This document shows, in pieces, positions 8,746 through 28,400 of a stretch of 31,361 nucleotides of DNA. The position numbers were made by a program, and so were the translations under genes. Numbering within the stretch: the first letter of the stretch is position 1; each line of letters starts with the position of its first letter. Below the pieces are notes generated by a model. The model was not told the origin of the DNA and did not search any database. It saw only the letters and a program-made list of their open reading frames with translations. Source of the DNA: a virus; IMG/VR virus record IMGVR_UViG_3300017714_000082, positions 1 through 31,361 of that record; one strand, given 5' to 3'.

Positions 8746-9232
8746 TTAACTTCCAGGCGATAGTGACTCTCAATGAATTGAATACCCTAGAGACTTCTTC
8801 GGCATGATGTTTTCTCATACCAGGGAAGAATATTCCTCTATTAGGTGCTGGTTCAACGTATGACCATGTGTTGTCTTCGTTTAGAAAAGCAGTTTTGCCT
8901 CCCCAGAGATGATCCCAATTACTATTTGCATAGAGTAGGAATGTTCTGCAGTCTTCATAATCTCCATCTGTATGAGGCATTGCCTTGTCACCATATACGT
9001 GTCCATTTGCATAAACACGTTCTAGTTCTAGATGAGGTTCGTCTACAGTTTCTCTAATGATATTTAGTAAATAATCTGAAAAGAACTCATCATCAGTCAA
9101 TTCCATCTGCCAAAAGGGCAATCCAGATGATCCTCTTAAAGAACCATGACCATATGCCCATTTTGGTTGAGTTACCTTCTCTAGTACTTCTGCAAAATCA
9201 AGATTGGTTAACGTTTGGTCGTAGATCTCCAT
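8717..9232 (-). CDS. 2-oxoglutarate/Fe(II)-dependent oxygenase, 171 aa
   Basis: Predicted to use Fe(II), O2 and 2-oxoglutarate to hydroxylate a substrate. The facial triad is visible: His87-x-Asp89 (MPHTDGD) and a distal His142 or 143 (PGMRKHHAEEVSR), with Arg155 in LRVTIAWK placed to bind 2-oxoglutarate. The fold strands GGKTAF and RGIFFPG lie between. The only longer start is a TTG at 9265, so the ATG at 9232 is preferred; it overlaps the upstream gene by 35 bases. Substrate unknown; similar genes are common near cyanophage structural genes. Confidence 0.8.
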   Translation of the reverse strand: MEIYDQTLTNLDFAEVLEKVTQPKWAYGHGSLRGSSGLPFWQMELTDDEFFSDYLLNIIRETVDEPHLELERVYANGHVYGDKAMPHTDGDYEDCRTFLLYANSNWDHLWGGKTAFLNEDNTWSYVEPAPNRGIFFPGMRKHHAEEVSRVFNSLRVTIAWKLNGATRKLYY

Positions 9233-9893
9233 ATTCTCTAATAAAGTTAGCTCTAATTTGTTCAAATGGCAAGAATGTGTCTACTGGTGCATCAGGACAT
9301 GCTTTCATTGCTGCTAAAGTTGCTGTAGATTGTGCGATTAATTGATAACGCAAGAAAGTTTCATCAATAATACTAGTTGCCCACAAAATAACAACACGAC
9401 GTTTGCCACTTGTAATAGGATTAACATGATGTATCAACCCAGTTGGGTATACTAATGCATTACCTGCTTTTGGTTTAAAGGGTACAGATTGATCTCCTAC
9501 TGATAGCATAAGTTCCCCGCCTTCATATTCGTCAGGTTCGGTAAGAAATATGCTAATACTATGATGTGTCTTGATACCAGAAATAGTGACATCATCAATA
9601 TGCTTATTGTAAAACCCACCAGTTCTATACTCTGCAAAAATAGGAACAGTGAGTTCTTTGAAGATATACACTGATGTGAATTCTTCATTATTTCTCATTG
9701 CTGTTTGAACAACATCCAAACACTTTCTGAACTGAGGGGAAGTTTGTTGTATGATGTGGTTGTCCTTTACATCAGGATTAACCTGATGTTTGCCATCTCT
9801 CTTTACTAATCCTGGTTTGGTTGGTGCATCATCAAAATAACTATTGATTCTTGATAGTTCTTTACTATCAAGAAGTTCACTTTCATAAATCAT
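9198..9893 (-). CDS. PKHD/PiuC-like 2OG-Fe(II) oxygenase, 231 aa
   Basis: Shows the PKHD-type hydroxylase pattern: YNKHIDDV with His98-x-Asp100, GGEL (125-128), and LIHHVNPITSGKRRVV giving His155 and Arg165. This aligns by eye with PiuC/YbiX ('LH.VTPVT.G.R'), which is about 225 aa, so length fits. It likely hydroxylates a peptide or small-molecule substrate in the infected cell; substrate unknown. It starts one base after the stop of the chaperone-like gene, and its end overlaps the next oxygenase. Confidence 0.85.
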   Translation of the reverse strand: MIYESELLDSKELSRINSYFDDAPTKPGLVKRDGKHQVNPDVKDNHIIQQTSPQFRKCLDVVQTAMRNNEEFTSVYIFKELTVPIFAEYRTGGFYNKHIDDVTISGIKTHHSISIFLTEPDEYEGGELMLSVGDQSVPFKPKAGNALVYPTGLIHHVNPITSGKRRVVILWATSIIDETFLRYQLIAQSTATLAAMKACPDAPVDTFLPFEQIRANFIREYGDLRPNVNQS

Positions 9894-9894
9894 A

Positions 9895-10839
9895 TCAATC
9901 CTCTTCTTCCTCTTCTTTGAATAGTTCGTAGTCGAAATCAGGATAGATTTCTGTTACCTTCATTTCTTTAATAATATCAAGAATTTCTTTCTTGATAAGT
10001 TTTGTTGATGTAACTCTAGATCTAGCATAGATCAGTTGACTTAGCATTCTGCTGTCAAGGAAATCGGATGATGCATCATCATCGTAATTTGTCCACTGAG
10101 AAGCATCATCAGCATCCATGAATGCAGGTGCATCAGTTACACCATCTTCCAATTTACCATCTGGATATAGTTTGAGATAGTTCTTAGGATCAATAGGGAA
10201 CACCTGTTGATACAATGATTTAGCAAAATCTAATGGTGATGGGAAATCTTTTGGATTGGGGATACCAATAGCTCTAACTTTTGCTCTCCAGTCCATCCAA
10301 CGTTGCTTTTCACCCTCATAACTATCCTCAACGTCAGGCAATACATGCCAATCAGACGCACTAAGCATCATTCTTTTTTCTCTAAGTCTCTTCAACCATT
10401 TTGCATCAAAGAATGAATATTCTTTTTCAACACCATCAAGTTTCTTTAATGTAGCAGCAGTTTTAACACCAGCAGCAGCAATAAACAATGCCAAAGCAGT
10501 ATTGTAAACTGCTTTCGCTTGTTCTACTGTGCCACCTTTAAACTGATATTCATTCCAATAACTAGATTCAGAAGCAAAATCATACTTCTGTCTGTTTCTC
10601 TGTGCATAAAAGGTGTCATCACTATTGTAAGCAAAGAATAGCAATAGATCTTCATCAGTATGCCAAAAAGAATCAATTTGTTCGTAGAACTTTGCCTTCA
10701 ATTCGTCACTGAATTTAGTGCGAGTCATCGCAGCATCTACATTGATATCTACTTGATCAATCGGTGCAGTTAGAATGGTATTATTAACCAAATCTACTTG
10801 AAGGATTGGTCTTTTGATTTTTGGTGTTGTTGAGGTCAT
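9895..10839 (-). CDS. Tail-fibre assembly chaperone-like protein, 314 aa
   Basis: Residues about 150-193 (KRLREKRMMLSASDWHVLPD and later KQRWMDWRAKVRAI) fit the phage tail-fibre assembly chaperone signature 'R...LLaasDWtqlpD.....k..W..yR..lR.i', normally found in proteins that help fold or attach fibres. The rest is atypical: 150 N-terminal residues of mixed helix and an acidic tail ending in E/D repeats, making it about twice the usual size. It lies between two oxygenases and just after the collar/adhesin genes, matching such a role. ATGA overlap with the upstream gene. Confidence 0.6.
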   Translation of the reverse strand: MTSTTPKIKRPILQVDLVNNTILTAPIDQVDINVDAAMTRTKFSDELKAKFYEQIDSFWHTDEDLLLFFAYNSDDTFYAQRNRQKYDFASESSYWNEYQFKGGTVEQAKAVYNTALALFIAAAGVKTAATLKKLDGVEKEYSFFDAKWLKRLREKRMMLSASDWHVLPDVEDSYEGEKQRWMDWRAKVRAIGIPNPKDFPSPLDFAKSLYQQVFPIDPKNYLKLYPDGKLEDGVTDAPAFMDADDASQWTNYDDDASSDFLDSRMLSQLIYARSRVTSTKLIKKEILDIIKEMKVTEIYPDFDYELFKEEEEED

Positions 10840-11555
10840 GCTAGGTGCGTTTTAATATACCATCCTGTCAAAATATATTTATCATCTTTAAGAAGGGTAT
10901 TTCCTTTATGTACATGTGTCATGCCAGCAGGGAAGAATACAACTGTGCCTTTTGTTGGTTTAATTCTTCTACCTTGATACAAAAACTCAGTCTCACCACC
11001 TGCCTCTGGATCTACATCATTAAGATAAATCATCCACACAACTTCTCTTTGTGCATGTGATGCAGCAGAGTTTTCATAATGCCATTGATGATATCCACCT
11101 TGAGGTAGTGTCTTCTGCATTTTAATATCACTTGAAAGCATAGGAACATTTTTTAATTGTCCGTACTCACTGATATAATGCTTGAGACAAGACTTCAGAA
11201 ACTGATTAACTTGGTAACTTAGTCCATCATTGCAATAATTTGCTAGAAGTGAAAGATCTTTTCTATACAAATTACTACCATATTGGATGTGACCATCCAT
11301 TTTAAATTCATCTACATATTCGGTATCAGTTTTTGATCCAAAATCTCTTTCTAGTTCCTCAAAATCAACACTTGAACTATTGCCATTCATCACATGCTCA
11401 AACCATGCAATACATTTATCGCAAAATGGTTCAGGTACAAAGTTGTCCCAAACTCCAATAAAGTCATCAAAGGATGCTTTTGTAATCTGCTCATTCATCA
11501 TTAATTCTAAAGGTCTCCATTCTTGGACCTTCTTGGATAATGTATTCGATACCAT
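10836..11555 (-). CDS. 2OG-Fe(II) oxygenase with HxE motif, 239 aa
   Basis: The double-stranded beta-helix region is clear: GGYHQWHYEN (153-162), GGETEF (186-191), GTVVFFPAGMTHVHKGN (203-219) and KYILTGWY (226-233). His159-x-Glu161 with His214 would bind iron, using Glu in place of the usual Asp, and Lys226 may bind 2-oxoglutarate. Some active 2OG enzymes do use HxE, so activity is possible. The ATG at 11555 is taken because the gap to the upstream stop is ten bases. Substrate unknown; fibre proteins encoded just upstream are candidates by position. Confidence 0.8.
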   Translation of the reverse strand: MVSNTLSKKVQEWRPLELMMNEQITKASFDDFIGVWDNFVPEPFCDKCIAWFEHVMNGNSSSVDFEELERDFGSKTDTEYVDEFKMDGHIQYGSNLYRKDLSLLANYCNDGLSYQVNQFLKSCLKHYISEYGQLKNVPMLSSDIKMQKTLPQGGYHQWHYENSAASHAQREVVWMIYLNDVDPEAGGETEFLYQGRRIKPTKGTVVFFPAGMTHVHKGNTLLKDDKYILTGWYIKTHLA

Positions 11556-11565
11556 TATTTAAAAC

Positions 11566-14500
11566 TCAGTATGCCTTTATTATATATTTGATTTTGTGGA
11601 AGGGTGCTAGGATAGGAACCTTCCTTTGTGGATTCATTTTTGCTTGAGGAATTGGTTTGGTTGAGTTATTCCAACTAAACGTTGCTGGATTAAGTTCAAT
11701 TTGAACGTCGCTTTGACTAAATTGTAAGTCAAATGTGGAATTAAACGTAGCAAGACCAGATCTATATGCAACTGCATCGCCATTTACATTACCATAAGTA
11801 TAATCATTTTGTGGATCTAATACAGGATCAGTACCTAACAAGTGTGCGTGAGTCAATGTTCCTGTGTAGATGGATAGATAGTTTTTAATTCTTGCTCTTC
11901 CTTCAGTTGTATCAATGACACCAGCATCTTGAGTGAATGCACCAATAGCAGAAAATCTATCAGGTGAGAATGAACCACCCTTACCATCACTATTTGCTTC
12001 AGACTGCAGATCACCAGCAGGAGTTCCCCAATAGTTACCGAAAGCAACTGTTGTACTACCAGATCCAGGCAATACATCTTCTAAAGAACCACGACCTGCT
12101 CTACTAAATTCTCTGTCTGCATCAGCATAGTTCCAGAAATTTGCATCTTCCCAGTAACCATCATCAACTGCGTCATCCTTACTATCATTTTGACCATTCC
12201 AACTTTGTGATCCGCTTGCAGCAGTACGTAGATATGCGTAAATATTCCATGGAATAACAGGATCACCATCAGGATCTTCTGGTTGACCAGTAATAAATTG
12301 GTGTTCATGTTGTGGTGGACGAACAGAAACACTAGTCACAGGACCAACATTAGCATTAACATTACCTGTAACAGTAAAGTCAACTTCAGTAGTTACTAAT
12401 TCTGTACCAAATGTTCTTGGTGTTCCTAATGTATAGAACGAAGATTCTGTTCCACTAGTCTGTCCAGCTGGTGCAATAACCTGTTCTAAGGGATCAGGGG
12501 CAGCAGAAACATCTACATCATCAAAATACCACCAACCACCAGTAGAACCAGGGAGTTCTGCACTACCACCAGCAGAAGTAACAGGAACAGATGGAGATGA
12601 TCCTTTATTAAAGTCTACTCTACCAGGTCCTACCATTCTAACATTACGATAGTCGGGTAAGTTGAAATTACCAGAGTATGTTTTTGATGCACTAATATAG
12701 GTTGCATTTCCACCATAGGTGTTACCAATTGATTCCCATAACCAAGGATACTCTGCTGCTGCTACTGAAGTTCCATCACATTCAAGGAATCCAGGGAATC
12801 TAATGTCGATATCACCATAACCAAAGTTACCATCATCTGCAATAGTTTCTCTAGGTACAGGTAATACAGTACCAATAGCATAACCATCATGCTTAGGTTG
12901 TCTATAAAAACTCTTGGCATTTGCAGGATCTGAATTAGATACTGCTTCCCATGCTTCTTCAGCAAAGAATGCATTCTTCTCGGAATACCAAACACCAAGA
13001 TATGATGGAGGAACTGGTTTTACTGCATAGTTTACAGATCTAAGTGTAAATGGCGCTGCAGTTCCAAAACTAATATCTGCTACACCATAATGAGATAGTC
13101 CTACAACTGGATCTAAATTAGCATTACCTGGTTGTTGGTAAATAATCGTTACAAATACTGGGTTATTACCAGGATCAGGACTCAATGTACGAGGTCCAGG
13201 TGCTGGTGTGTCTCCATTAAGAGAGAACAATACGTTACCGATGTTTTCGCCTGTAGCAAAATTAAACTCATTATAGGCAACTAGACTGGATGCTGATATT
13301 GTAATCGGTAAGTTGAAATTTGTCAAGCCTATGGGTCCAATCACACTCGCTCCACCAGGAGTCCTATTTAAAACTTGATTGATTGGAGTAAAAGATGGAC
13401 TAGTATCAGGACCAGTCCAATTAGTAATAGACCATGTTGGGACAAATCTATCACCAACATTAATACCCATTTTTGTTGATCCTTGACCAGGAAGCAAGGG
13501 ATTACTAATATCATTACTACCATCAAGAACTAATTCAATAATATCACCATTTTGAACTTGAATGTTACTAATAATACCAGATGATCCACCATTAACACTA
13601 ATTCTTGGATTTGCTGTAGATGTAGTGTCACCACTCCTCAAAGAAACAGGAACAAATATACCAGGAGTTAGACCAGCAACTAATGCTTTGCCACTAGATG
13701 CCGATCCAGATTGAACAGTTGATCTATAATTAACATTACCAGGAATCTGTTCGACGAGATTTTGGAAGACAAAACTATTAGGATTTTCATCAAGACCAGC
13801 ACCTGTCGTCACTATCCATCCAGAAATACCATTTCCATCACCAATAGTTACACTAAAATTCTTTGGCGAGAACTCACTTCCAGAACTAGTTCCTCTTAAT
13901 TGAACATATTGACCATTCTGAACTGTTTTATTATTGCCCCATGTACCAATAATATTAGATAAAACTTCAAAACCATCAGCATTTGTAAATGTTGTATTGA
14001 AATTAGAGACAGCAATTTCAGCACTATTATCAACAGTCATAAGTGCTTGAGTTGTCAACCCTAAAATCTGAGGTCTGTCGCTATAGACAAGAGCATTCAA
14101 CTCTTGGTTATTTAAACTACCGAAATTAGGTGCAGGATTTGGAGTGTTGATAGGAATAGCACCTGTGGTGATTTCCCATTCAGCAGAACCAGTACCAACA
14201 ACAACGTTAACATTTTTGGTATCAGATGGTGCCGAAGAAGCTCTTAGTCTAACTTGAATTCTGTCAAGGTTAGAAATAGTCTGGTTAATTGCTCTTGTCC
14301 ATGGACCCCAAGCACCATATGAACTAGTTGCTGTGAGGTATTGATTAACACGATAAGCGTAGTCATTAGGATCTAATACGTTAGATGTGACTGATAATGG
14401 TGCTTCAGTTCCAGGATCTAAACCAGTAATAGTAATAACTTCTTCACCACTACGAAGAGGATCTGGTTCTCCAGGAGTTAATCCAGTATATGCAACGCCA

Positions 14501-14748
14501 TCATCAGGAAACGCAGTTTGTGCATATGTATACATGACATCACTTTCTGCTTCATCTATATTCTGTAGAAAGAATGGATCTGGAGCAAAATCTTCTAACT
14601 TGGTTTCAATAACCCAAGTAATAGTGAGCTCACCAATATCAATAGTTACATTAGTAACTTCCGAGTAACTAGGAGGTGCCTCATACCTAAACTGGATGGA
14701 CTGACCTTCCTCAACATATAGTGGGGTAGCACTAAACTGATACGCCAT
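11566..14748 (-). CDS. Tail-collar fibre protein with N-terminal repeats, 1060 aa
   Basis: A virion adhesin or short-tail-fibre-like protein. The N-terminal half shows about four diverged beta repeats of 100-140 residues, each with a central W (W45, W191, W311, W439) and a following GL motif (110, 230, 360, 474). A tail-collar domain follows at about 647-705 (PGFLECDGTSVAAAEYPWLW to FNLPDYRNVRMVGPG). Then come HEHQF (about 814-818) and THAHLLG, resembling metal-binding HxH motifs of fibre tips. It ends in KIKYIIKAY, similar to the ends of the two other collar proteins here. It closes the adhesin block, 29 bases after the 493-aa gene. Confidence 0.85.
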   Translation of the reverse strand: MAYQFSATPLYVEEGQSIQFRYEAPPSYSEVTNVTIDIGELTITWVIETKLEDFAPDPFFLQNIDEAESDVMYTYAQTAFPDDGVAYTGLTPGEPDPLRSGEEVITITGLDPGTEAPLSVTSNVLDPNDYAYRVNQYLTATSSYGAWGPWTRAINQTISNLDRIQVRLRASSAPSDTKNVNVVVGTGSAEWEITTGAIPINTPNPAPNFGSLNNQELNALVYSDRPQILGLTTQALMTVDNSAEIAVSNFNTTFTNADGFEVLSNIIGTWGNNKTVQNGQYVQLRGTSSGSEFSPKNFSVTIGDGNGISGWIVTTGAGLDENPNSFVFQNLVEQIPGNVNYRSTVQSGSASSGKALVAGLTPGIFVPVSLRSGDTTSTANPRISVNGGSSGIISNIQVQNGDIIELVLDGSNDISNPLLPGQGSTKMGINVGDRFVPTWSITNWTGPDTSPSFTPINQVLNRTPGGASVIGPIGLTNFNLPITISASSLVAYNEFNFATGENIGNVLFSLNGDTPAPGPRTLSPDPGNNPVFVTIIYQQPGNANLDPVVGLSHYGVADISFGTAAPFTLRSVNYAVKPVPPSYLGVWYSEKNAFFAEEAWEAVSNSDPANAKSFYRQPKHDGYAIGTVLPVPRETIADDGNFGYGDIDIRFPGFLECDGTSVAAAEYPWLWESIGNTYGGNATYISASKTYSGNFNLPDYRNVRMVGPGRVDFNKGSSPSVPVTSAGGSAELPGSTGGWWYFDDVDVSAAPDPLEQVIAPAGQTSGTESSFYTLGTPRTFGTELVTTEVDFTVTGNVNANVGPVTSVSVRPPQHEHQFITGQPEDPDGDPVIPWNIYAYLRTAASGSQSWNGQNDSKDDAVDDGYWEDANFWNYADADREFSRAGRGSLEDVLPGSGSTTVAFGNYWGTPAGDLQSEANSDGKGGSFSPDRFSAIGAFTQDAGVIDTTEGRARIKNYLSIYTGTLTHAHLLGTDPVLDPQNDYTYGNVNGDAVAYRSGLATFNSTFDLQFSQSDVQIELNPATFSWNNSTKPIPQAKMNPQRKVPILAPFHKIKYIIKAY

Positions 14749-14777: not shown

Positions 14778-16259
14778 TTAGGGTGATTGTCTGACATCAT
14801 TCCAATTTGCTTCAATTAGAGGATCAGCATCGTCAAATTTAACTTTAATTGGTTTGTCCGATCTAATTTCTACAGCAACATCAATATCACCAACAATAAT
14901 AGGGTCACTCAGTACTGACTCTTGATCAGGTGCCAATACATTATCTGTTGGAACTTGATTTAGACTAGGGTCAATAGTAATAGAGTCAGGTAGTTCATCA
15001 ATATTGACATCTATAGAGTTCGATACGTTGGTAGTACCACCACCACCAGAAGCAGCTAAAGAAATTTCTACACCAAATACACCTTGTACTGTCCAAGGAA
15101 TACTTAAATTAACGTTACCTGTAATGGCACCACCACTTTGATCAGATGTTGTTCCAGGTAAACTAATATTTTGTGAAACAGTAATAAAACTTCCAGTAGT
15201 AGGATTTCTAACACTATAAACTGCTGTACCATTGACTCCACCTGTTGCATACCTATATGTCACTACAAACCCTACGCTTGCTCCATAATCTATATTAGTT
15301 GGAACATTATAACTAATTTGTGGTAATTGATTTACTACAATAGTCACAGAATCACTATCACTACCACCAGGTCCGCTGGCAGATAAAGTATATGTGGTTG
15401 TACTAGATGGAGATACAGATTTATTGCTACTAAACAATACAGCACCAATACCTTGATTAATAGTAGCAGGAGTATTAGCAGAACCTGATACTACCCAAGT
15501 TAGAGTTGTTGATTGTCCAACAATAATAGGGTTTGAAGATACACCTGTAAATTGAGCAACTACTGGTTGATATACAGTTATAGTTACAGCAGTAGTTCTG
15601 CTGGTGATACCATAATAACTCGAAACTAACGTATAAGTTGTACTATTAGTAGGAGATTTTGTTAAAGACCCACTAGACGCAACACTACCAGAACCTGTCA
15701 AAGTTTGTGATGTAGAACCACTGACAGACCATGCTAGAGTAGCATTCGCACCCGCAATTATAACATTAGGAGTTATAGTAAGAGTATTAGATGGTGTAGG
15801 ATATGAACAGGTTCCATTATCAACATCTGCGTTTGGATTATAGTTTGTAGCACGGGAATCTGTACATCCATAAACAAGTGGTGGTGGAACAAATCCAACC
15901 CAATCTATAGCAATACCCCAAGGTCCACCACCACTATTATTAGCATTAGCACTAAGAGTATATGTGCCTGGTCCATAATAATTTGTGGTAGTGACTAAAC
16001 TTTGCGTTCCAAATCCACCCATTCCCATTTCATAATTGCCATTAATATAAATTGCCCCATTATCATCCACATTAGCATAGAATTGTTGTCTGCCATAATT
16101 ATTAAAAGTGATAGTCCATGAATATGTCCTATTAGGACCAGGAGTACCAGAAGTATCTCTACCACCTACATTGTAGGTGTTCATGAAATTAGACCAATTC
16201 GGCTCATAGAATTGAGGACCGCCGTTAGCTCTACTAGTAAAATTAAAATCTTGTGTCAT
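14778..16259 (-). CDS. Modular adhesin: PA14-like head, Ig repeats, shared C-terminus, 493 aa
   Basis: Third of three tandem paralogues. Residues about 1-125 form a beta-rich head (YSWTITFNNYGRQQFYANVD, DNGAIYINGN, GTYTLSANANNSGGGPWGIA) resembling PA14 or lectin-like folds, which often bind sugars. YGCTDSRATNYNPNADVDNG then TCSYP (130-154) is a calcium-loop-type motif common in surface proteins of marine bacteria. Two Ig-like repeats follow (about 155-308), then the common C-terminal domain (309-493, from LPQISYNVPTNIDYG). The start overlaps the previous paralogue by one base (TAATG). Likely a tail-tip receptor-binding component; host ligand unknown. Confidence 0.75.
   Translation of the reverse strand: MTQDFNFTSRANGGPQFYEPNWSNFMNTYNVGGRDTSGTPGPNRTYSWTITFNNYGRQQFYANVDDNGAIYINGNYEMGMGGFGTQSLVTTTNYYGPGTYTLSANANNSGGGPWGIAIDWVGFVPPPLVYGCTDSRATNYNPNADVDNGTCSYPTPSNTLTITPNVIIAGANATLAWSVSGSTSQTLTGSGSVASSGSLTKSPTNSTTYTLVSSYYGITSRTTAVTITVYQPVVAQFTGVSSNPIIVGQSTTLTWVVSGSANTPATINQGIGAVLFSSNKSVSPSSTTTYTLSASGPGGSDSDSVTIVVNQLPQISYNVPTNIDYGASVGFVVTYRYATGGVNGTAVYSVRNPTTGSFITVSQNISLPGTTSDQSGGAITGNVNLSIPWTVQGVFGVEISLAASGGGGTTNVSNSIDVNIDELPDSITIDPSLNQVPTDNVLAPDQESVLSDPIIVGDIDVAVEIRSDKPIKVKFDDADPLIEANWNDVRQSP
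14800..14837. repeat. 38-bp exact repeat, copy 1
   Basis: Identical to 18041-18078. Both encode the same part of the C-terminal domain (DADPLIEANW) of two paralogues 3.2 kb apart, indicating recent duplication or exchange. Confidence 0.85.
15439..15463. repeat. Ig-repeat DNA element, copy 1
   Basis: Contains ACCAATACCTTGATTAAT, shared with 16917-16948 and 18668-18699 and, with one change, near 17160. It encodes the INQGIGAV core of the Ig-like repeats on the minus strand. Confidence 0.75.
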
Positions 16260-18016
16260 TAGTTAGGACGCACGTCGTACCAATTGGAGTTTATTAATGG
16301 ATCATCGTCATCAAACCTAACTTGTATTGGTTTGTTTGATTTAATTTCAACAGCAACATCAATATCACTTACAACAATGGGGTCACTGAGAACAATATCA
16401 AAATCAGGTGCTTCTACATCATCTGATGGTATTTGTTCTAAACTATTTGGTATAGTAATATTATCGGGTAATTCATCAACATTAACATTTATAGTTTCTA
16501 CTTGATTTGTAACTCCTCCCGCACCATTGGAAGACAAAGAAATATCTATAGCAAATACACCATGTAAACCATATGGAATATTAGCAACAACATTACCTGT
16601 TTTCTCTGCACCTGATTCATCCGAACTAGTTCCAGATAAAAATACATTTTGTACTTGAGTTTGGTTCGCACCAGTAGTGGAGTTTCTCATAGTATATGTA
16701 ATAGTTCCATTGACACCACCACTAGCGTATCTATATGTTACTGGAAATTGTAAAGTATCTCCATAATCTATATTAGTTGGAACATTATAACTAATTTCTG
16801 GTAGTTGATATACTGAAATTGTTACACTATCACTATCAGTACCACCAAGACCACTAGCATTAATTGTGTACGTAGTGCTGGTTGATGGCGAAACTGAAGT
16901 ATTTGATGTTAAAACAACAGCACCAATACCTTGATTAATAGATGCTGTGGTGCCACCAGCACCAGAAACAACCCAACTCAATGTAGAATTTTGTCCAACA
17001 ATTATTGAGTTAGGAGATGCGGAAATGGTAGCAATTGTTGGTGGATAAACTGTAATGCTAGCATCTGCTGTATCATTACCTGCTAATCCAATTGCAGTCA
17101 TTGTATAAGTTCTAGAACTACCAGGACTAATTGTAGTTGAACCAGAAACACCAACAGAACCAATACCTTGATTGATACTTCTTGATGTAGAGTCAGCAGT
17201 ATTCCACGACAATGTAGCAGATTGTCCAGCAATTATAGTATTAGGTGATATAGTAAATGAAGTGATCTCGGCAATTGTGACTGTGAATGATAGCGTCATG
17301 CTACCATTACCACTATTGGTTGACTGATTAACAAAACTAACTTTACTGCTGTTGTATCTGGAAGTTCCACCGCCTCCTCCACCGCCGCCATAGTTACAAT
17401 CAACACCTTGACCGCCGCCACCGCCGCCTGAAGAACCGCCGCCTCCACCGCCGCCGCCTCCGCCGTCTCCACCACCAGGAGAACCGCCACCGCCACCATT
17501 AGATAAACCAACACCACCAGATGAAAACCCACCACCAGTGCCGCCAGTGCCACCAGGACGTTGAGCACCACCACATGAGTAGGATCCACCTCCACCTCCA
17601 CCACCGCCTCCAGCGGTAACTACAATATTTCCACCCAAATAAAATACAGATGCTGCTCCCCCACCTGCTCCACAACCAGACCATCCACTAGTTCCATCAT
17701 CACCACCTTTGCCACCTTTGCCACTTCCACCAGCAATATTTCCGCCAGGACCACCAACAGCAGCACCAGTTCCACCAGGACCATTACTACCTCTAGCACC
17801 CCATCTACCAGTAAAAGATCTATTGCTATTTGATGTTGGAATAGTAAAATTACCAGATCTACCATTACCTCCACCGCCACCAGGACCACCAGAGTCAAAA
17901 CCTCCAGAACCTCCTGATCCTGCTGCAATACTTAAAGAAATATTTTGAGCACCACCAGGAATTGTTCCTGATTGGCCCCCAAATGATATGTTGTAACTAA
18001 CAGGTGATGAACTCAT
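16259..18016 (-). CDS. Modular adhesin: glycine-rich head, Ig repeats, shared C-terminus, 585 aa
   Basis: Second of three tandem paralogues. The head, about residues 12-230, is dominated by glycine runs (GGSGGFDSGGPGGGGGNGRS, then many GGGG blocks with interspersed N, S, Y), reminiscent of glycine-rich adhesins such as T-even gp38, whose variable loops set host range. Two Ig-like repeats follow (about 250-405), then the common C-terminal domain (406-585). The C-terminus DELPDNITIP and SDPIVVSDIDVAVEIKS is nearly the same as in its neighbours. It starts one base inside the previous stop (TAATG). Host-recognition role is inferred from the architecture. Confidence 0.8.
   Translation of the reverse strand: MSSSPVSYNISFGGQSGTIPGGAQNISLSIAAGSGGSGGFDSGGPGGGGGNGRSGNFTIPTSNSNRSFTGRWGARGSNGPGGTGAAVGGPGGNIAGGSGKGGKGGDDGTSGWSGCGAGGGAASVFYLGGNIVVTAGGGGGGGGGSYSCGGAQRPGGTGGTGGGFSSGGVGLSNGGGGGSPGGGDGGGGGGGGGGSSGGGGGGQGVDCNYGGGGGGGGTSRYNSSKVSFVNQSTNSGNGSMTLSFTVTIAEITSFTISPNTIIAGQSATLSWNTADSTSRSINQGIGSVGVSGSTTISPGSSRTYTMTAIGLAGNDTADASITVYPPTIATISASPNSIIVGQNSTLSWVVSGAGGTTASINQGIGAVVLTSNTSVSPSTSTTYTINASGLGGTDSDSVTISVYQLPEISYNVPTNIDYGDTLQFPVTYRYASGGVNGTITYTMRNSTTGANQTQVQNVFLSGTSSDESGAEKTGNVVANIPYGLHGVFAIDISLSSNGAGGVTNQVETINVNVDELPDNITIPNSLEQIPSDDVEAPDFDIVLSDPIVVSDIDVAVEIKSNKPIQVRFDDDDPLINSNWYDVRPN
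16917..16948. repeat. Ig-repeat DNA element, copy 2
   Basis: Identical over 32 bases to 18668-18699 in the neighbouring paralogue; the first 25 bases are also shared with 15439-15463. Confidence 0.8.
17370..17950. repeat. CCN/CCA-rich low-complexity tract encoding glycine
   Basis: The plus strand is a dense run of CCG/CCA/CCT triplets (for example CCGCCTCCACCGCCGCCG around 17441-17460), being the complement of glycine codons in the head of the 585-aa adhesin. The triplets make it prone to slippage and recombination and create long false ORFs in other frames. Confidence 0.8.
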
Positions 18017-19845
18017 TAAACGTCCCTACTTCTTACATCTTTCCAATTTGCTTCAATTAGAGGATCAGCATCGTCAAACCTAACTTGAATTGGTTTGTCT
18101 GATCTAATTTCAACAGGAATATCAATATCCGTGACAACAATGGGGTCACTGAGAACAATATCAATTTCTGGTGCTTCTACGTCATCAGATGGTGTTTGTT
18201 CTAAACTATCTGGTATAGTAATATTATCAGGTAACTCATCAATTTCAATAGTTAATGTTGGAGTAACATTTACATTAGTTGTTCCACCACATCCCTGTGC
18301 TGATAAACTATATGAAATAAACTCAGGTCCAAAATCAGTATATACAATGGATGAATTAAATGTTTCAGTTTTTTGTGTAATATTTTTGTCACTATCATTG
18401 CCTGCCAAGTCAAATACAACATTAGCAACACTACCATCAGTATAAGTCATCAATGCTGTTACTTGAACAGTTGGTGCTGCAGCATATGTAATATCTACAT
18501 TAAATTGTTCCCCATAATCTATATTAGCTGGGAAATTGGCACTAATTTGAGGTATTTGACAAACATTAGCTGTTACACTAGCAGTATCAGTACCTCCAGG
18601 ACCACTAGCAATAATAGTATATGTAGTTGATGTAGATGGACTAACAGGAGTATTTGATGTCAGTAGTACAGCACCAATACCTTGATTAATAGATGCTGTA
18701 TCAGCATCACCACTAACAACCCAAGACAAAGTTGGAGTTTGACCGACTGTAATTGGGTTAGGATTAATAAAAATAGTAGCAACTGTCGGTTCATAAACAG
18801 TTAGATCTACACTTTTTGTAGTTGTAGATCCTAATGCACCACCGAAATTTTTTGCAGTTATAGTGTAAGTACGTGATACACTCGGATTAACTACTACACT
18901 ACCATTTAATCCAAGTGGTAAAACATTACCAATTCCATTATTAATTGATAGAAAATCAACATTAACACCAGTAACATCCCAACTTAACGTGGCGGAACCA
19001 GGGTCAATATAGTTATTAGGAGTAATTGTAAACGTAACTGTTGGTGGAGGTGGAGGTAATACAGTAACAGTGACTTGTCGTGTCGTAGTACCAGCAGGAC
19101 CAACAACAGTTAAAGTATAATTTGTTGATGATGTTGGATTAACAGCAATAGTACCTGATGGATCAGAAACTACTCCTACATCTGGTAATATATTTGCTGA
19201 TGTAGTGTCTCCAAATACAATCCACGATAATACTGCAGTTCCATTATATGGAATAGTAACACCACTTTGCTCATTAAAGTTAGTCTGATGATTGGGATCT
19301 GTAGAGAATGATGCCGATGGAGGAAAATCAACTGCCTGATCTGCAGACCATCTTTCACCTTGATCACTCTCTTCATAAACAACATTAATACCTTCTGCTG
19401 CACATCGTTCAATAAAATAGTTGTACGACGCTATTACAGTAGATTTTGTCATCGAACCCGAAACGTCTAGCCACACGGATACATAAGAACCTGGTGGTTG
19501 ACTTCCTAGATTACAAATAGCAAACCAATCTGATCTTGAAGCAACGTTGCCGTTATCTCTAGCAACTGTAACAGTATGAGTTAATGAGTCATTAATATAA
19601 CTGGTTGGTCTATTAAGTTGATTCTGCGATCGTCCTGGTTGTAGTAACCAAAACTCTCTACCAGTACCACTATTGTTGGGATATAAATCTCTAAATCTGG
19701 TCCAATCGTTAGCAATCGCCTGTGCGCTGCTACTTACACTTTGTGGATAAGGTGCTGGTGGTGGAAAACTATTATAATTATTTCTTGCCTGACTACCAAC
19801 CGATTCGTCAATAATTGATATACATTGTGTCCTTGGAATTACCAT
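18016..19845 (-). CDS. Modular adhesin: vWA-like head, Ig repeats, shared C-terminus, 609 aa
   Basis: First of three tandem paralogues. Near residues 122-158, VSVWLDVSGSMTKS followed by a helix and GINVVYEES gives the beta-alpha-beta start of a von Willebrand A domain, with MIDAS residues Asp127, Ser129 and Ser131 that would hold a metal ion for ligand contact. The rest of a normal vWA fold is not evident, so it may be reduced. Three Ig-like repeats span about 176-425, then the common C-terminal domain (426-609). A perfect AGGAGG lies seven bases before the ATG, suggesting high expression. Likely part of the tail adhesion apparatus. Confidence 0.75.
   Translation of the reverse strand: MVIPRTQCISIIDESVGSQARNNYNSFPPPAPYPQSVSSSAQAIANDWTRFRDLYPNNSGTGREFWLLQPGRSQNQLNRPTSYINDSLTHTVTVARDNGNVASRSDWFAICNLGSQPPGSYVSVWLDVSGSMTKSTVIASYNYFIERCAAEGINVVYEESDQGERWSADQAVDFPPSASFSTDPNHQTNFNEQSGVTIPYNGTAVLSWIVFGDTTSANILPDVGVVSDPSGTIAVNPTSSTNYTLTVVGPAGTTTRQVTVTVLPPPPPTVTFTITPNNYIDPGSATLSWDVTGVNVDFLSINNGIGNVLPLGLNGSVVVNPSVSRTYTITAKNFGGALGSTTTKSVDLTVYEPTVATIFINPNPITVGQTPTLSWVVSGDADTASINQGIGAVLLTSNTPVSPSTSTTYTIIASGPGGTDTASVTANVCQIPQISANFPANIDYGEQFNVDITYAAAPTVQVTALMTYTDGSVANVVFDLAGNDSDKNITQKTETFNSSIVYTDFGPEFISYSLSAQGCGGTTNVNVTPTLTIEIDELPDNITIPDSLEQTPSDDVEAPEIDIVLSDPIVVTDIDIPVEIRSDKPIQVRFDDADPLIEANWKDVRSRDV
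18041..18078. repeat. 38-bp exact repeat, copy 2
   Basis: Identical to 14800-14837; lies in the C-terminal domain of the 609-aa adhesin. Confidence 0.85.
18668..18699. repeat. Ig-repeat DNA element, copy 3
   Basis: Identical over 32 bases to 16917-16948; encodes the conserved ASINQGIGAV of the last Ig-like repeat in the 609-aa adhesin. Confidence 0.8.
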
Positions 19846-19852
19846 ATCTCAA

Positions 19853-19858
19853 CCTCCT
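19853..19858 (-). promoter_or_regulatory. Perfect Shine-Dalgarno (AGGAGG) for the 609-aa adhesin
   Basis: AGGAGG is spaced seven bases from the ATG at 19845 and overlaps the upstream gene's TGA (19858-19860). It is much stronger than most sites in the window, so the first adhesin of the trio should be well translated while the other two rely on TAATG coupling. Confidence 0.8.
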
Positions 19859-20748
19859 CAAATTTTAATAATGTAACTAACAATAATGAATGGAGTAACC
19901 ACATCATCCAACTTAGTGATTCTTTCTGTGGAAATATTTAATACAGTATTCACATTATCAGCAGGGATTGAAAATACAGTATGCTGATATTGAAAATTTT
20001 GAGTGTAAAGTGTTGGTTTGGCAATTTTATGTGTGTGCGATGATAATGCCGACGTATTTGGATTTGAAACGTCTAGAACATTACCAGAACCTGAGTTACC
20101 AATATCTTGTCCATCATCTTTACCATCACCACCAACAATATGAGATGTAGTATAGTTTAGATATCCTACATCAGCATCATGAGCATGTCCTTGAAAGTTT
20201 TCGATATCAAGGAATTGTTCTGTTGATGTAGTTTCAAATTGATATTTGGGACTAGATTTAAAATCATAATTAGTTGAAACAGGAACTCCTTCAAAACTAC
20301 CAATAAAGTCACATGTTAGTTGAGTTCCTTCATTACAAATAACTTCTGCTGCTGGTCCTACTCTATATTCATCTGTATCACCAACAGTTGTTGAAAGATA
20401 ATCACCAACACTTCTGCTAGGAATAATAACTTTTGATCCTAAGTCAGGTAATTGAAATTGTCCTAGATCTCCAGTTTCTTCATCTGGTTCTCTAAGAGTA
20501 ACATTTAGTTTTTTAAATTTAGATTCACTACCTACACCTAATACCTTACTTAAGGCAAGATATTTTTGAGCATTTTGAATTGACCCATCACACTTCAAAA
20601 ATCCTGCGGGAATAATTTCCTGAAACGATGTAAAATTTGGATCATTTACACTACCAAGTGACGATGTTGCATGAGTTTGGATAGATCCAATAAATCCACC
20701 AAAATGTGCTTTAATTTGAGAGTAGTTATTATTGGTATTAAATGCCAT
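19858..20748 (-). CDS. Tail-collar domain protein, 296 aa
   Basis: A fibre or collar protein of the virion. The collar domain is split: PAGFLKCDGSIQNAQKYLAL (47-66) then FQLPDLGSKVIIPSRSVGDY (98-117). HAHD and later SSHTHKI are HxH-type motifs like those that bind metal along fibre tips. It ends VTPFIIVSYIIKI, matching the ending of the 1060-aa protein. The segment IPAGFLKCDG is diagnostic for the family. It starts one base after the 564-aa gene's stop, so the two are co-translated. Related to T4 gp12-like short tail fibres by domain only; the exact counterpart is unclear. Confidence 0.8.
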   Translation of the reverse strand: MAFNTNNNYSQIKAHFGGFIGSIQTHATSSLGSVNDPNFTSFQEIIPAGFLKCDGSIQNAQKYLALSKVLGVGSESKFKKLNVTLREPDEETGDLGQFQLPDLGSKVIIPSRSVGDYLSTTVGDTDEYRVGPAAEVICNEGTQLTCDFIGSFEGVPVSTNYDFKSSPKYQFETTSTEQFLDIENFQGHAHDADVGYLNYTTSHIVGGDGKDDGQDIGNSGSGNVLDVSNPNTSALSSHTHKIAKPTLYTQNFQYQHTVFSIPADNVNTVLNISTERITKLDDVVTPFIIVSYIIKI

Positions 20749-22447: not shown

Positions 22448-25400
22448 TTATACGTCCATTAGATACCAACCTGCTTTATTGGGGTTAGCGCCTCCGTTAC
22501 CATCGGCATCAACCTCACCACAGAACACAAGACCAAATGCAGCATTTGGAGTTTGAACAACCAATTCACCGCCGTTATGTGTTAGTGAGAAGTTTTCGCC
22601 AAGAGTGTTTCCTGTTACGGTAGTGCCTGTATTACTTTGAGATCCTTGAACATTGACTAGAGATTGTGCTCTAACAACCAAAGACTTATCGTAAGATAGG
22701 ATACCACTAATATCTATAATGCGAACCATGTCGCCCATTTGAGCATTAACAGGTAACTTGAATAGTGTTGTACCAGAGATATCAACAAAGTAATTGACAT
22801 TTGCAACAGCAGTGATAATGCTAGTGTTAGCAACAACCCACTTCATACCACCAGTAGGTGAGATGTAGTTAGAAATTCCAGCAATATTGAGGGATCCGTC
22901 ATCGTCAACTGCAAAGACTTCATTACCATTTTGATTAACAACGAAGTCTCCACCATTGACTGTTAGGTCACCAGCAATTTGAACAGGACCACCGAATTCA
23001 GATAGTCCATCACCTTCAGCAGATAGAGAACCATAAACTGTAAGATCGCCTGCACCTGTAAGGGTTAAACGTTCAGTTGTACCATCAACAGCATAGATGT
23101 TAAGGTTACCCCCGTTCATCGTTACATTGCCATTAGCAGTATCGATTTCAAATGTAGTTCTTAGCGGAGTAGCAACTGTAACACCATCGTTCTGGAAAGA
23201 AGGACCGCCATTGGTGATGGTAAAGAATTGCTGGTTAACAATCGTAGATCCATTTAGTGTCAGTGTATTTTCAATAGTCGTAGTGCCATTGATATTAGTG
23301 TTACCATTCTGTCCATTAATAGTAAACTGATTGAATCCAAGTCCAATACCAACATTACCTGCAATAGTAGTGTCACCAGTAGTAGAGTTAACTCTAAAGT
23401 TTTCTACAGCAGGTGATCCACCATCGTTAACAATCAATGCTTGAATATCGGTGCTAATAACATCAGCAATACCAACAATTTCAGCACCATCTAGTCTCAA
23501 GAGGTCAAGAGTAGTTAGAACACCACCGAACTCAGCAACACCAATTCTTACATTAGCAGTAGAGCTGTCGATGCCTGATCTTGGTTCATCAAGAATACCA
23601 TCGGGTACTGTTGGTTGTCCAGGTGATCCAACATCCTTACCAGTAATGAAGGATGCAGCAGGTTGCTTATCAAGTTTAGCAATTACTGTGCCATCAGGGT
23701 GATCGATCCAACCAGAACGACCCAGAGAAGTTTGTGTTGTAGGATCACCAGTACCTTCTTCTGCTCTTGTAACAGAGATTCTGAATCCTTGACCATCACT
23801 AGGATTAGTTACGTTATCTAATCCAACAACACGCATGATCTCAGACTTTGCTTGATCACGCAGACCTGTAACAGAACCGCCATTAGTAACAACAATGTTG
23901 TTAGGAGATGCAGAGTTACCACGATCAAGAAGAATTAGATCACCGATATCAAAGTCGCCAGCTCCAGGTGTACTGATTGGTAGGATGTATACATCACTAG
24001 AATCAGTAACTCCATTAATATCCAGAGTAATATCTGGAGCACCACCGCCACCAATTAAGGAGTCGGCAATCGTTAGTTGCTGATTATCAGCATATCCAGT
24101 ACCAGTTGAAACAACCTCTACTGTTACTGTTCCATCAAATGCAACCGAAATATCGAATGCAGCACCACTACCACTACCACCAGTAGCGAATCTAAACGCA
24201 TATTGTCCAGAAACACGCAAGTTAGAAGGATCAGGTGCCTGTAAGTTATCGAATCCAGAGATTCTACCACCACCAGCAATGTCCTGACTACCACCCCAAA
24301 GTCTTACACCAGCCGTATCAATTACTCTACCAGTACTCTTATACTTGTAGAAGTCAATGTTAGGAGTATCGAGGGATCCTAGGTTGTGAAGACTAATAGG
24401 AGTAGAGAATCTTTCTCTTACAATTTCAATGATACCTGCAGTTGTACCACCATCAAGAATAATGCTGGAATCAATTGTTGCAGATGCTTGAACTTTCAGG
24501 GAGTTTCTAATGGTAGTTGTACCACCAAGAGATGCAATTGTAATCTTATTTGCTTTAGTAAACGCTTCAACTTGTTGCGTTCTATCATCATCAAATAGTC
24601 TTGCTTTACCAGTTTGAGTGAAGATTCTTGCTTCACCAGTACCAGCAGCAACTTTACTGCCAATCTCTAATGTACCACCAGTGATAGTTTGTGCAGATCC
24701 TAGAACAACCTTGGAGTTTGCATTTCCCCATGCACCACCGATGAAGACTTGAGAATCCTTATCAGCATCATCAGCAACTGTTGCAATGTCTACAAATGCA
24801 TTTTCTGATAGAGCATGAACACTGAAGATTGATCTAGGTACGTTCGTACCAATTCTTACTGTTTGGAAGTCAGCATTAGCACCAATAGTGATCGTTTGAT
24901 CATTACTGGTATTACTGAACATATCAATCAGTTGTGCATCACCAGCAAAGTTCAGGATTGTAGCATTGTTATTAATTAGATTAAATGCTTGTGATGTAGT
25001 GTTAATATCACCACCATCGACACTGATGTCATCGGAGATCAAGAAATTACCAGTGATTCTACCATCACCAACAACAACCAAGTTACGATCTAGTTCTCTT
25101 TCAGCAGTAACACCAAGAGCAGTATTAATACCAACTCTACCACCAGCAGTGTAAGTAGTGCCAGGAGTTAAATCATCACTGGTTGCAACACGTAGAGTTG
25201 CAGGTTGATCAAGGTTATTACTATCACCACCGACTAGCAGTGCATTATCCTGAGGAATGAATCCCTTCTGGGTAAGTAGAGCACCTGTTAGACCTTCACG
25301 CTGATCACTATTAAGATTACCAAGATTGTTAATGTTGAGTATGGTGTTTCCAGCACCATCTTGACCAACGTTATCGTAGCGGTTCTCTTGTACAACGCCA

Positions 25401-28400
25401 TTGACATCGTATGTGACTAGAGTTCTACCAGAGATGAATGCAGTACCTACAACATCAAGGTTTGCGCGAGGAGTGGTGAACTCGTTAACATTGTTAGAGA
25501 GAACTGCATCGAAAGCAGTTCTTGCGATTGTGTTAATACCGAGTCTGTAATCTCCACGCTCATCTGTGTAAGTTCTGATTGTTTCAGCACCAAGAACACC
25601 TTGTTCTTTCCATTGCTTGGAGGAAACTTGAATGTCTCCACCAGCCCAATCTGCAGAAGAGTAGATAATACCAGCACCAATGTCAGTTGAGATCTGGAAT
25701 TGGAATGTAACACCTGTTTCAGTCCAAGTACCATCAACAACTTCCCAGTCACCATTTAAAGCATTATTAGAGAAGTTGATGATTCTAATTTGAGAATCTA
25801 TCAAAATCTTGGTATTCTTATTAGTAAAGGTTGCATTAAACTCAACTGTTAGATTCTTTGTTCCATCTGCAGTAATTCTAAAGATTTTAGCAGCAAAACT
25901 AGTGAATTTATTAGCAAGAATCCAACCAAGTGAACCAGACTCTCCAACATAGCTACCTTTGTATAGAAGATCGCCTGCGGCAGGATCTTTCAGTAGGTTG
26001 GCACCATATTCAACAAGCTGTGTTGAATAGAATGCAGTATCTAGATCCTGCCAAGGTGTAAGGTTAGATGGTTCAGCACCAAGATAGTTAGTTCTCCAAG
26101 TGTAGGACTGACCATACTGAGCAGTTGGTTTTGGACGAGCATTTAGAACAAATACAGCGGATCTAATCTTGTTACCAGAGATTAAGATATCACCATCTTT
26201 CTGATCTCTCCAAGAACCAGCAAACAATGTTTGATCTTCATCAGCAGAAATATTAGAGAGAACTCTAAGTGCATCGCCTTCAGATGCTTCAACATTGATC
26301 TCAACAGGTCCGTTCAATGAGGACTTGCCAGCAACTACAATTGTAGAATTAAACGTTACTGGAGAATCGAATGTCGTAACAAGCGTTCCGATGTTCTCAT
26401 CATCATCCTCAGAATCAATCAATGAGGCAGATTCAAGGAATGTCTCTTCACCAGTGATAGCGTTGACTTTCTTGTTACCAATATAGAGGTCGCCGTTAGA
26501 GTTTAGACCTGTGTAGAAGACGATACCACCATCTTCACGTTTTGCCTGAGCGTAGAAGTCTTGCTTATCAGTAAGAACAACTTCTTGGCGAAGTGGGAAA
26601 CCAGTTGAATAGTTACCAGGACCGAATCCAAGATACTCAAATGTGTGGTTACCAGATCTAGCAATAGATGGTCTACGAAGTTCAACGTAAAGTTTACGTT
26701 CTGTTGGGAACTGAGAGTCACCAGAGATAGGAATCAATCTATCTTCAGAACCAGAAGTTGCATTACCTTCTTGTCCTTGAATTCTGTTATCAATAATGTT
26801 TCCATTACTATCTGTTGTAGTGTTGGTGTAGAAAAATTGATTTAGGAAAGAATTAGAGATTGCATCGGTAATCATCTCTTTCGTTTCACTACCCTTAGCA
26901 TCGTTAACTGTTACCAAACCATGTACATAGTTGTCAGCAGCAGAAATTGTAGCAGGAACATCAACAATAGAAGTATCTCTAACACCTGTACTACCATCAA
27001 CTTGGAACCACAATGGGTCGTTCTTGTAGTTGATAGGATACAACTGAGAAATAGGTTGAGAGAACTTAAAGTTTCTGAAGTTCTCACCAACACCAGATCC
27101 TTGTGGGAACGGAGAGATATTACCACGCAAGCAGGTTAGGTAGTAGATACCATCCTGTTGGTTTGCAATACGCTCTTGCAACGTATTAATATCAAAGATG
27201 TAGAAGGAATCATCAAAGTTTCCTTGGTCTTCAATTGTTGCGACAAAATATGCATTCTGACCAGTATCATCAGTAACAATATCACCAGGAGCAATAGTAT
27301 AAACGTTTGCTCCTTCTACTCTATAGAGGTAGTTGTCACGTTTTGCTTTGTCCAGTCTTGCAATATCACCGAACGAGTTAGGAGTCTCGACGAGTTGAAT
27401 TTGAACTGCACCTTGCTTGAACAGAACTACATTACCTGCAATGAAATCTAGTTCGCCAACAACACCTTTCAGGACTAAAACTGCTTGAGAAGTTTCAATA
27501 TCATTAATGTATGATTGTAGATATGCTTCACCTTGTACTGTGCCGCCACCTACTGTCTCCCACGTAATCTTGTTAGCATCATTACTTTGAGTTGCATTAG
27601 CAGTGAAGAATCCACCTTGCAGGAAGTTACAACGAACAACTGTGAAGATCTCGTTCTTAACAGACTGATTAACGATCGTGTGATCGAAGAGTGTTACCTC
27701 TAGGAACTCATCATTGGATCCTAGAATAGGTTGAACTTTACGTGCAGATTGAATCGTAGCAGAAATTTTAGAATCAAATTCAATTACCTTCGGTTCTTGA
27801 TATGGATCGTAAAGATTTTGCTGTTCTGGTAGTAGATCAACAACAGATGGATCAATTGTTCTTACTTGATCAGCAATCAATTCTGATTTGTTTAGACCAA
27901 TTTGCTCACCAGCATTGGCGGGGTTAAAGAACGATGCGACATTATTTGGGTTACCAGGAATAGGCTTCAGCAATACTCTTTGTGGAACTAAGCGACGTTT
28001 GTCATCAGTTCTACATTTGATAACGAAACCATTGAGGGGATCACGTACTGTCTCCAAGTAGGAAGGAACAACATAACGCATTCTATAAACACGATCTTCC
28101 TTACCTCTTTCATCTTCAATACGAAGATAACGAGTATCAAGTGTGGGATCAGTCTTAGTTTGGAAATCATTGACTAGTTCTACACCACCATGGAATCTTG
28201 AAAGAATACTATAGCGATTATATGTGCCACTATTACCAGAATTTGACTCATCTTCAACATTAAGATACCACAAACCACTAGTGTTGCCCGTTGCTGTAAA
28301 CTCAGGGTCAAAGACTAGAGGTGATGGACGCTTATTAGCATAGAGATAGAAATTATTACCTGTTCCAGAAACAAACGTCAGTGCTCTATCACCAGACTCA

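Follow-up and report, generated by a model that had tools for sequence, protein, structure and literature searches.

Interchangeable adhesin heads in T4-like cyanophages and a proposed docking end complementary to the short tail fibre

How might one phage particle carry several unlike adhesins at once? The question is raised by three tandem genes in a 31,361-base virus record (IMG/VR IMGVR_UViG_3300017714_000082), the whole of which was analyzed and is called the window here. Judged by PHROG matches and by its relatives, the window is the tail-fibre region of a T4-like cyanophage, with the tail-fibre block encoded on the minus strand. We know of no established receptor-binding proteins for these marine cyanomyoviruses, and the locus names candidate adhesins, their attachment end, a partner and the exact residues concerned. 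We propose, with a probability of roughly 0.7, that each adhesin attaches by completing a split immunoglobulin (Ig)-like domain on the N-terminus of stf, the 1060-residue short-tail-fibre protein encoded after the trio. This docking proposal is the new element of the analysis.

A preliminary description, made from the letters of the window, had read the trio as proteins with unrelated heads, two or three Ig-like repeats and a common C-terminus of about 180 residues that docks all three on one site. Open reading frames (ORFs) and junction letters confirm three genes, for proteins of 609, 585 and 493 residues, which meet in a 1-base overlap, TAATG, at both junctions. Ahead of the shared tail we counted 3, 2 and 2 Ig-like repeats in genes 1, 2 and 3, and the heads are indeed unrelated, with 27 to 29% identity and membership in different families. 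The long common C-terminus is shared but not uniform: an Ig-like part of about 110 residues (43 to 59% identity among the three) is followed by about 75 terminal residues that are 68 to 75% identical, which we call the dock. The idea of a common attachment end survives, confined to those last 75 or so residues instead of the whole 180.

The trio is not a chance reading, because profiles, relatives and a close counterpart all recover it. PHROGs 2155, 29022 and 9770 match all three adhesins (best E value 4.3e-197), and the PHROG 2155 profile covers most of each protein (4.3e-197, 4e-194 and 1.7e-142). In all 13 complete genomes of phages that carry docks, a hidden Markov model (HMM) of the tail finds 2 to 6 copies, each of them inside the same slot. 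The three ORF lengths recur in a 101.9-kb IMG/VR contig (L022), whose 585-residue gene is 100% identical to that of the window.

Labels for the heads are softer. Pfam lists no family for adhesins 1 and 2 and one below cut-off for adhesin 3, and sequence searches of Pfam, NCBIfam and PDB gave nothing above cut-off or convincing for the heads. The vWA-like label of the first head rests on the metal ion-dependent adhesion site (MIDAS) motif D-x-S-x-S, which as D-x-S-G-S is invariant across 27 aligned heads. This part of the earlier labeling held, and sequence searches added little to it: the best match among solved structures (E 0.52) is not named vWA, and Pfam has none. The PA14 label fared similarly, as a PA14 profile stays below cut-off in an Sf-FR1 relative (E 0.038, 14.2 bits against 24) and none is above cut-off in gene 3. 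From the head types and their variability, we infer that the adhesins serve in host recognition.

Relatives place such genes in a defined slot. When the tail of gene 2 served as tblastn query, 49 of 50,697 phage records matched, all of them cyanophages by name except one marine virus filed under Kyanoviridae; the relative Sf-CH1b gave weak tail-HMM matches only. Dock genes sit between the collar gene (GC 736) and stf (GC 740) in all 16 dock-phage regions searched with HMMs (L001-L015 and L017). A scan of IMG/VR yielded 286 relatives, and 78 loci were retained; the unit set comprises 227 adhesin units in 97 loci, with the start complete in 207 of the units. After removal of near-copies from 57 complete slots, 39 remained, with one dock in 2 slots, two in 6, three in 28, four in 2 and six in 1. 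A second scan gave 36 complete slots, with one dock in 1, two in 10, three in 24 and four in 1; leaving out slots whose stf start had already been seen, 18 slots held one (1), two (6), three (10) or four docks (1). The slot is empty in ACG-2014h (L106) and S-H9-1 (L126), where stf directly follows the collar gene.

Slot genes are closely joined and sometimes fused. Counted as docks per ORF, the second-scan slots were structured as (1,1,1) in 12 cases, (1,2) in 9, (1,1) in 6, (2) in 4, (3) in 3, and (1) and (1,1,1,1) in 1 each. Fused ORFs have two docks in L008, L012, L081, L087 and L097, three in L089, L092 and L094, and four in L082, where a single 2263-residue ORF (L082:4462-11250) carries four heads and four docks. 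Such natural fusions put several heads into one product. The commonest junction between slot genes is the 1-base overlap (27 of 64 gaps), which suggests coupled translation.

Interchange of heads on a constant end, as the preliminary description supposed, is visible among close relatives. Heads of at least 60 residues form 15 clusters, six of them found in more than three loci, and the 39 nonredundant slots show 28 head patterns. Family H1 has 49 members in 49 of the 97 dock loci, and counts for cluster H0 are upper bounds because it joins two unlike head types through a shared GCTD...GTC loop. Both head order and head content vary: the window runs vWA-like, glycine-rich, PA14-like, S-RIM44 ES_42 has the last two reversed, and S-H9-2 has its vWA-like head in last position. 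The third head of the window and the first of ACG-2014j share 83% identity, with docks 36% and collar proteins 47% identical. Between two S-RIM44 strains, identity is 98.6% downstream of a point 261 bases short of the gene 2 end; ahead of that point gene 2 is unalignable, and gene 1 is 85% identical. Similarly, two ACG-2014j strains share 93 to 94% identity up to the first six bases of gene 2 and again over its last 206 bases, the interior showing weaker matches only (67% and less extended). In both allele swaps, the stretch retained is the dock.

Docks also resemble each other within a phage. Mean dock identity is 64% within phages (117 pairs), 50% between phages for the same head family (1064 pairs) and 47% otherwise (5035 pairs). 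Among 11 lineages with collar identity below 0.6, the nearest dock lies in the same phage for 33 of 34 docks, where 2000 label shuffles gave a mean of 2.6 and a maximum of 10; the count is 62 of 90 with thinning at 0.9 and 54 of 112 in the unthinned 39 slots. A tail tree covers 71 rows taken from 23 chosen phages; the phage labels need 41 changes on it, where shuffled labels average 60.1 and 0 of 200 shuffles are as low, despite the scatter of S-RIM44, Syn1 and other phages. A link between dock length class and the N-terminal residue of stf breaks in L057 and largely follows phylogeny, and was set aside. The adhesin slot is thus real, widespread and modular.

To what does the dock attach? The probable partner is the N-terminus of stf, by way of an Ig-like repeat that appears to be divided between the two. 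We built a repeat HMM of 96 positions and 157 rows solely from Sf-CH1b- and Sf-FR1-type loci. In hhalign comparisons, the dock aligns to repeat positions 1-50 (P 1.6e-5) and the stf N-terminus to positions 49-95 (P 3e-11). Scores were 30.7 for the dock and 55.2 for the stf N-terminus, against maxima of 14.5 and 17.4 in 200 column shuffles, 9.5 and 13.4 for reversed controls, and 9.2 to 18.2 for other profiles. Of 227 docks, the repeat HMM hits 202 at a domain E under 1, and 144 at under 0.1, with the hits nearly always inside the first half. Complete stfs of nonredundant dock phages start mid-repeat, at positions 49-56, in 33 of 33 cases. The second scan gave 79 stf-like ORFs whose 5' end is complete; 75 start at positions 40-59 (51 of the 75 being new), and the other 4 match the C-terminal part of the stf model only. 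The window stf hides no first half, because only two codons separate its ATG from the in-frame upstream stop.

By tblastn, the stf array and the docks share nearly all of their records. The array query matched 50 records; accession lists compared by eye show these to be the same 49 that have docks and, in addition, Sf-CH1b, whose match falls within an adhesin. For the C-terminal half of stf the count is 57 records, eight of them outside the dock set. In the empty-slot phages ACG-2014h and S-H9-1, stf starts near the collar domain with no clear half repeat, and the half repeat is likewise absent from S-RSM4 and S-WAM2, the latter located through its collar protein. S-RSM4 (L105:13208-17428) has glycine-rich stretches resembling adhesin heads within its stf protein. 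Protein 146 of S-SCSM1 (L125:8497-12534; 1345 residues, named outer capsid / short tail fibre) contains repeats and Ig domains in a different order. The stf gene is broken into two ORFs in L079:12420-15378 and L098:9958-12842, possibly by frameshift or assembly error.

Two further lineages divide the repeat in their own ways. Sf-CH1b has no clear dock; the array that closes each of its two adhesins is homologous to the N-terminal part of dock-phage stf, and the Sf-CH1b stf is without that array. All 34 C-terminally complete adhesins of this type end at repeat position 83-84, and all 13 stfs begin M(A/S)Y..xWxVxTYxSADN, which by eye corresponds to positions 85-95 (near-copies kept in both counts). 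In the Sf-FR1-type lineage, a 58-residue ORF is hit by the repeat HMM at positions 5-50 (E 9e-4) and by the dock HMM (E 1.9e-7, seven sequences searched), with profile P values of 0.0018 against the repeat and 2.5e-5 against the dock; the stf just downstream starts with positions 54-93 (E 3.4e-10). This layout is alike in all four loci examined. The ORF is a headless half repeat (L104:15075-15251, L204:1338-1514, L205:275-451 and L206:7001-7177), perhaps a fibre-end cap. Three gene-boundary arrangements support the proposed docking mechanism.

Structure prediction is compatible with incomplete domains. An AlphaFold2 (AF2) model of gene 3 from 61 alignment rows has a mean predicted local distance difference test (pLDDT) score of 87, with ten-residue blocks at 80 to 98 over residues 11-420; from residue 421, in the dock, blocks fall to 45 to 68 and no strand reaches three residues, and many nearly invariant columns lie in this part. 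In the model of the stf array (19 rows), the first 60 residues score 47 to 76 with two strands, and blocks from 111 on score 74 to 95. Low confidence in the dock and at the stf start is as would be expected of half domains, and low confidence has other causes too. Among the best 50 structure matches to the adhesin model and to the stf array are generic Ig-like proteins (titin, complement C3, GhpA, central-apparatus proteins and RB49 Hoc), with no entry named PA14 or vWA; a viral structure library ranks members of this same family, from ACG-2014e and S-CAM1, first.

The sequences show how the genes are laid out, that heads shuffle, that docks are conserved, that split points are complementary, and that a clear half repeat is missing from the stfs of the two empty-slot phages; a physical complex, the occupancy of a trimer and receptor binding by the adhesins would go beyond them as follows. 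Each product of the slot would consist of a head, two or three Ig-like spacers, one further Ig-like domain and a C-terminal dock. The dock would supply positions 1-50 of a repeat of about 96 residues, and stf, which opens with positions 49-95 before its further repeats, would supply the rest, the two forming one Ig domain in principle as donor strands complete pilus subunits. Because stf is adjacent to gene 3 alone, genes 1 and 2 could not be joined to it by readthrough, and attachment would have to occur between separate chains. Under this proposal any head could be exchanged, by recombination at the dock edge, because the dock is self-contained, and the likeness of docks within a phage would follow from their shared need to fit one fibre half. 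Fibres of the stf class are expected to be trimeric, as is T4 gp12. With three N-termini, a fibre could carry three adhesins at once, in keeping with the modal three docks per slot. We are more tentative about this extension, in which three different adhesins plug onto the three N-termini to make mixed tips and the split point has shifted between lineages while staying complementary; we would give it slightly less than even odds.

Several observations weigh against attachment to stf in this manner. Of 39 slots, 11 have a dock count other than three, as do 8 of another 18 distinct slots, and the internal docks of fused genes would have to function or sit idle. Compared with the stf repeats of dock phages themselves, the dock is not significant (score 11.3, P 0.16), so that its link to the repeat goes through Sf-CH1b-type repeats and the 58-residue ORF, and an Ig-spacer control profile reaches 18.2 against the repeat (P 0.0042). 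The stf N-terminus of ACG-2014h has a weak repeat hit at positions 38-63 (E 0.021) despite the empty slot, and Sf-FR1 lies outside the 49 records yet its stf carries repeats, by HMM only. No natural dock-stf fusion ORF occurs among 76 newly numbered second-scan loci or in the first-scan listing. The lowest stretch of the stf model is residues 77-101 (below 50), not the N-terminus. The nearest head lies in the same phage in 0 of 34 cases, which is weak as evidence because the heads of one phage come mostly from different families. A chemostat study of phage S-PM2d names mutations in genes 218, 219, 220 and 224 of coexisting phage (PMC9910659, in part); by the S-PM2d record (L103) these genes surround the trio 221-223, of which only the middle gene is labeled virion structural protein, and genes 221-223 themselves do not occur in its main text.

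Could the shared tail instead dock on another part of the virion, such as baseplate or collar, leaving the stf half repeat as a functionless remnant of gene fission? The collar gene borders the slot, the dock matches the phages' own repeats weakly, and the dock-stf complex is a proposal. However, three lineages show complementary ends, with two different split points between them; 33 of 33 and 75 of 79 stfs retain the half repeat, which is hard to square with uselessness; and the 296- and 564-residue collar proteins of the window have no repeat match at E values up to 1, so that nothing points to them as the docking site; we consider this alternative unlikely. Decoration of the capsid by Ig-like fibres with a C-terminal capsid-binding domain is less probable still. 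PHROG assigns the family to its head-and-packaging category, the polarity of T4 Hoc is alike (PMC10385173, in the part available), and RB49 Hoc is among the generic Ig matches, but in every one of the 16 regions the slot has fibre and collar genes at its borders, the dock is complementary to a fibre protein, and Sf-CH1b has adhesin and fibre array in one protein.

The heads might also not be used in parallel, the set serving as a recombination reservoir from which one dominant adhesin is expressed or assembled. Natural head exchange with the dock kept, and the grouping of tails by phage, would suit such a reservoir. The prevalence of 1-base overlaps, with the coupled translation they suggest, and the fusions of two, three or four docks speak for several heads made together, and we regard a reservoir as doubtful. 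Attachment of each adhesin to the stf N-terminus through a split Ig-like domain thus remains our preferred reading.

Positions of the trio and its neighbours are collected below. On the minus strand, the order is giant fibre, 564-residue short-tail-fibre-like protein, 296-residue collar protein, the three adhesins and stf, followed by a 2OG-Fe(II) oxygenase, a tail assembly chaperone and a second 2OG-Fe(II) oxygenase. stf contains a Phage Tail Collar domain (PF07484, 32.3 bits against a cut-off of 24) and matches phrog_4924 with an E value of 0. The giant fibre ORF (22448-31198) has at least 2916 residues, its frame still open at the window end, and matches phrog_4527. The oxygenases (9198-9893 and 10836-11555) flank the tail assembly chaperone, as in several annotated relatives.

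Table 1. Features of the adhesin slot and its borders in the window (aa, amino acids).
Feature	Position	Strand	Basis
Adhesin gene 1, 609 aa, head family H1 (vWA-like, D-x-SGS)	18016..19845	-	ORF and head clustering
Head of gene 1, aa 1-175	19321..19845	-	Head clustering, domain division, D-x-SGS motif
Dock of gene 1, aa 532-609, putative first half of repeat	18019..18252	-	Profile alignment; repeat HMM 2-46, domain E 0.31, weak
Adhesin gene 2, 585 aa, head family H2, glycine-rich	16259..18016	-	ORF and head clustering
Glycine-rich head of gene 2, aa 1-250	17267..18016	-	Head clustering
Dock of gene 2, aa 509-585	16262..16492	-	Sequence/profile alignment
Adhesin gene 3, 493 aa, head family H0, PA14-like with GCTD...DVDNGTC loop	14778..16259	-	ORF, clustering, AF2
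Head of gene 3, aa 1-155	15795..16259	-	83% aa identity to head of first slot gene of ACG-2014j
Dock of gene 3, aa 416-493	14781..15014	-	AF2 pLDDT 45-68 from residue 421
Short-tail-fibre protein stf, T4-like GC 740, probable docking partner	11566..14748	-	PHROG, HMM
Orphan second half of Ig-like repeat, stf aa 4-50 = repeat 49-95	14599..14739	-	hhalign P 3e-11; hmmsearch domain E 7.7e-8
stf Ig-like array, aa 1-575	13024..14748	-	HMM, AF2
Tail collar protein, GC 736, other slot border	19858..20748	-	Pfam, PHROG

By profile, the trio belong to PHROGs 2155, 29022 and 9770, all annotated virion structural protein; those families carry no mechanism, and the division into head and dock and the partner are new here. 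A 2010 review noted that several T4 fibre genes are not in all marine cyanomyoviruses and suggested structural proteins of unknown function as replacements (PMC2984593, in part). The slot arrangement is not described in the available portions of PMC3037559, PMC2984593, PMC9910659, PMC6224464, PMC10385173 and PMC11414711. If the docking proposal is true, it offers a rule for spotting cyanophage adhesins: a half repeat encoded before a fibre that starts with the other half.

Several known systems resemble the slot in part. The branched tailspikes of Ackermannviridae likewise give one phage several receptor-binding proteins, whose tsp genes can be acquired from relatives (PMC11414711, in part), and the trio would similarly provide several probable receptor-binding proteins in one phage. 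In the tailspikes, however, the conserved domains are N-terminal (same source), whereas the conserved part of the trio is C-terminal and apparently Ig derived. T4 Hoc also has an N-terminal Ig-like chain and a C-terminal attachment domain (PMC10385173, in part), but it binds capsid hexamers, while the trio genes sit with tail fibre genes and appear to complement a fibre protein; Pfam does not list the Hoc family for the adhesins, with no Hoc C-domain profile run by name. A parallel in principle may be the chaperone-usher pilus, where donor-strand complementation lets the N-terminus of the next subunit complete an incomplete Ig-like domain (PMC6615685, in part). Chaperone and usher are not named among 8 window proteins scanned against Pfam and 10 against PHROGs, most of the genome lying outside the window, and no phage-fibre case of donor-strand-like assembly is among the literature matches listed, which cover titles and the starts of abstracts and leave subscription literature mostly outside. 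The missing piece in the window is about half a domain, its partner would be a phage fibre, and no sequence kinship to pili was shown. Dock and stf ends are complementary by profile, which may point to a donor-strand-like completion; Sf-CH1b-type adhesins lack about the last strand, and their fibre starts with what reads as that strand. If the proposal is true, these cyanophage fibres would be a phage counterpart of donor-strand assembly.

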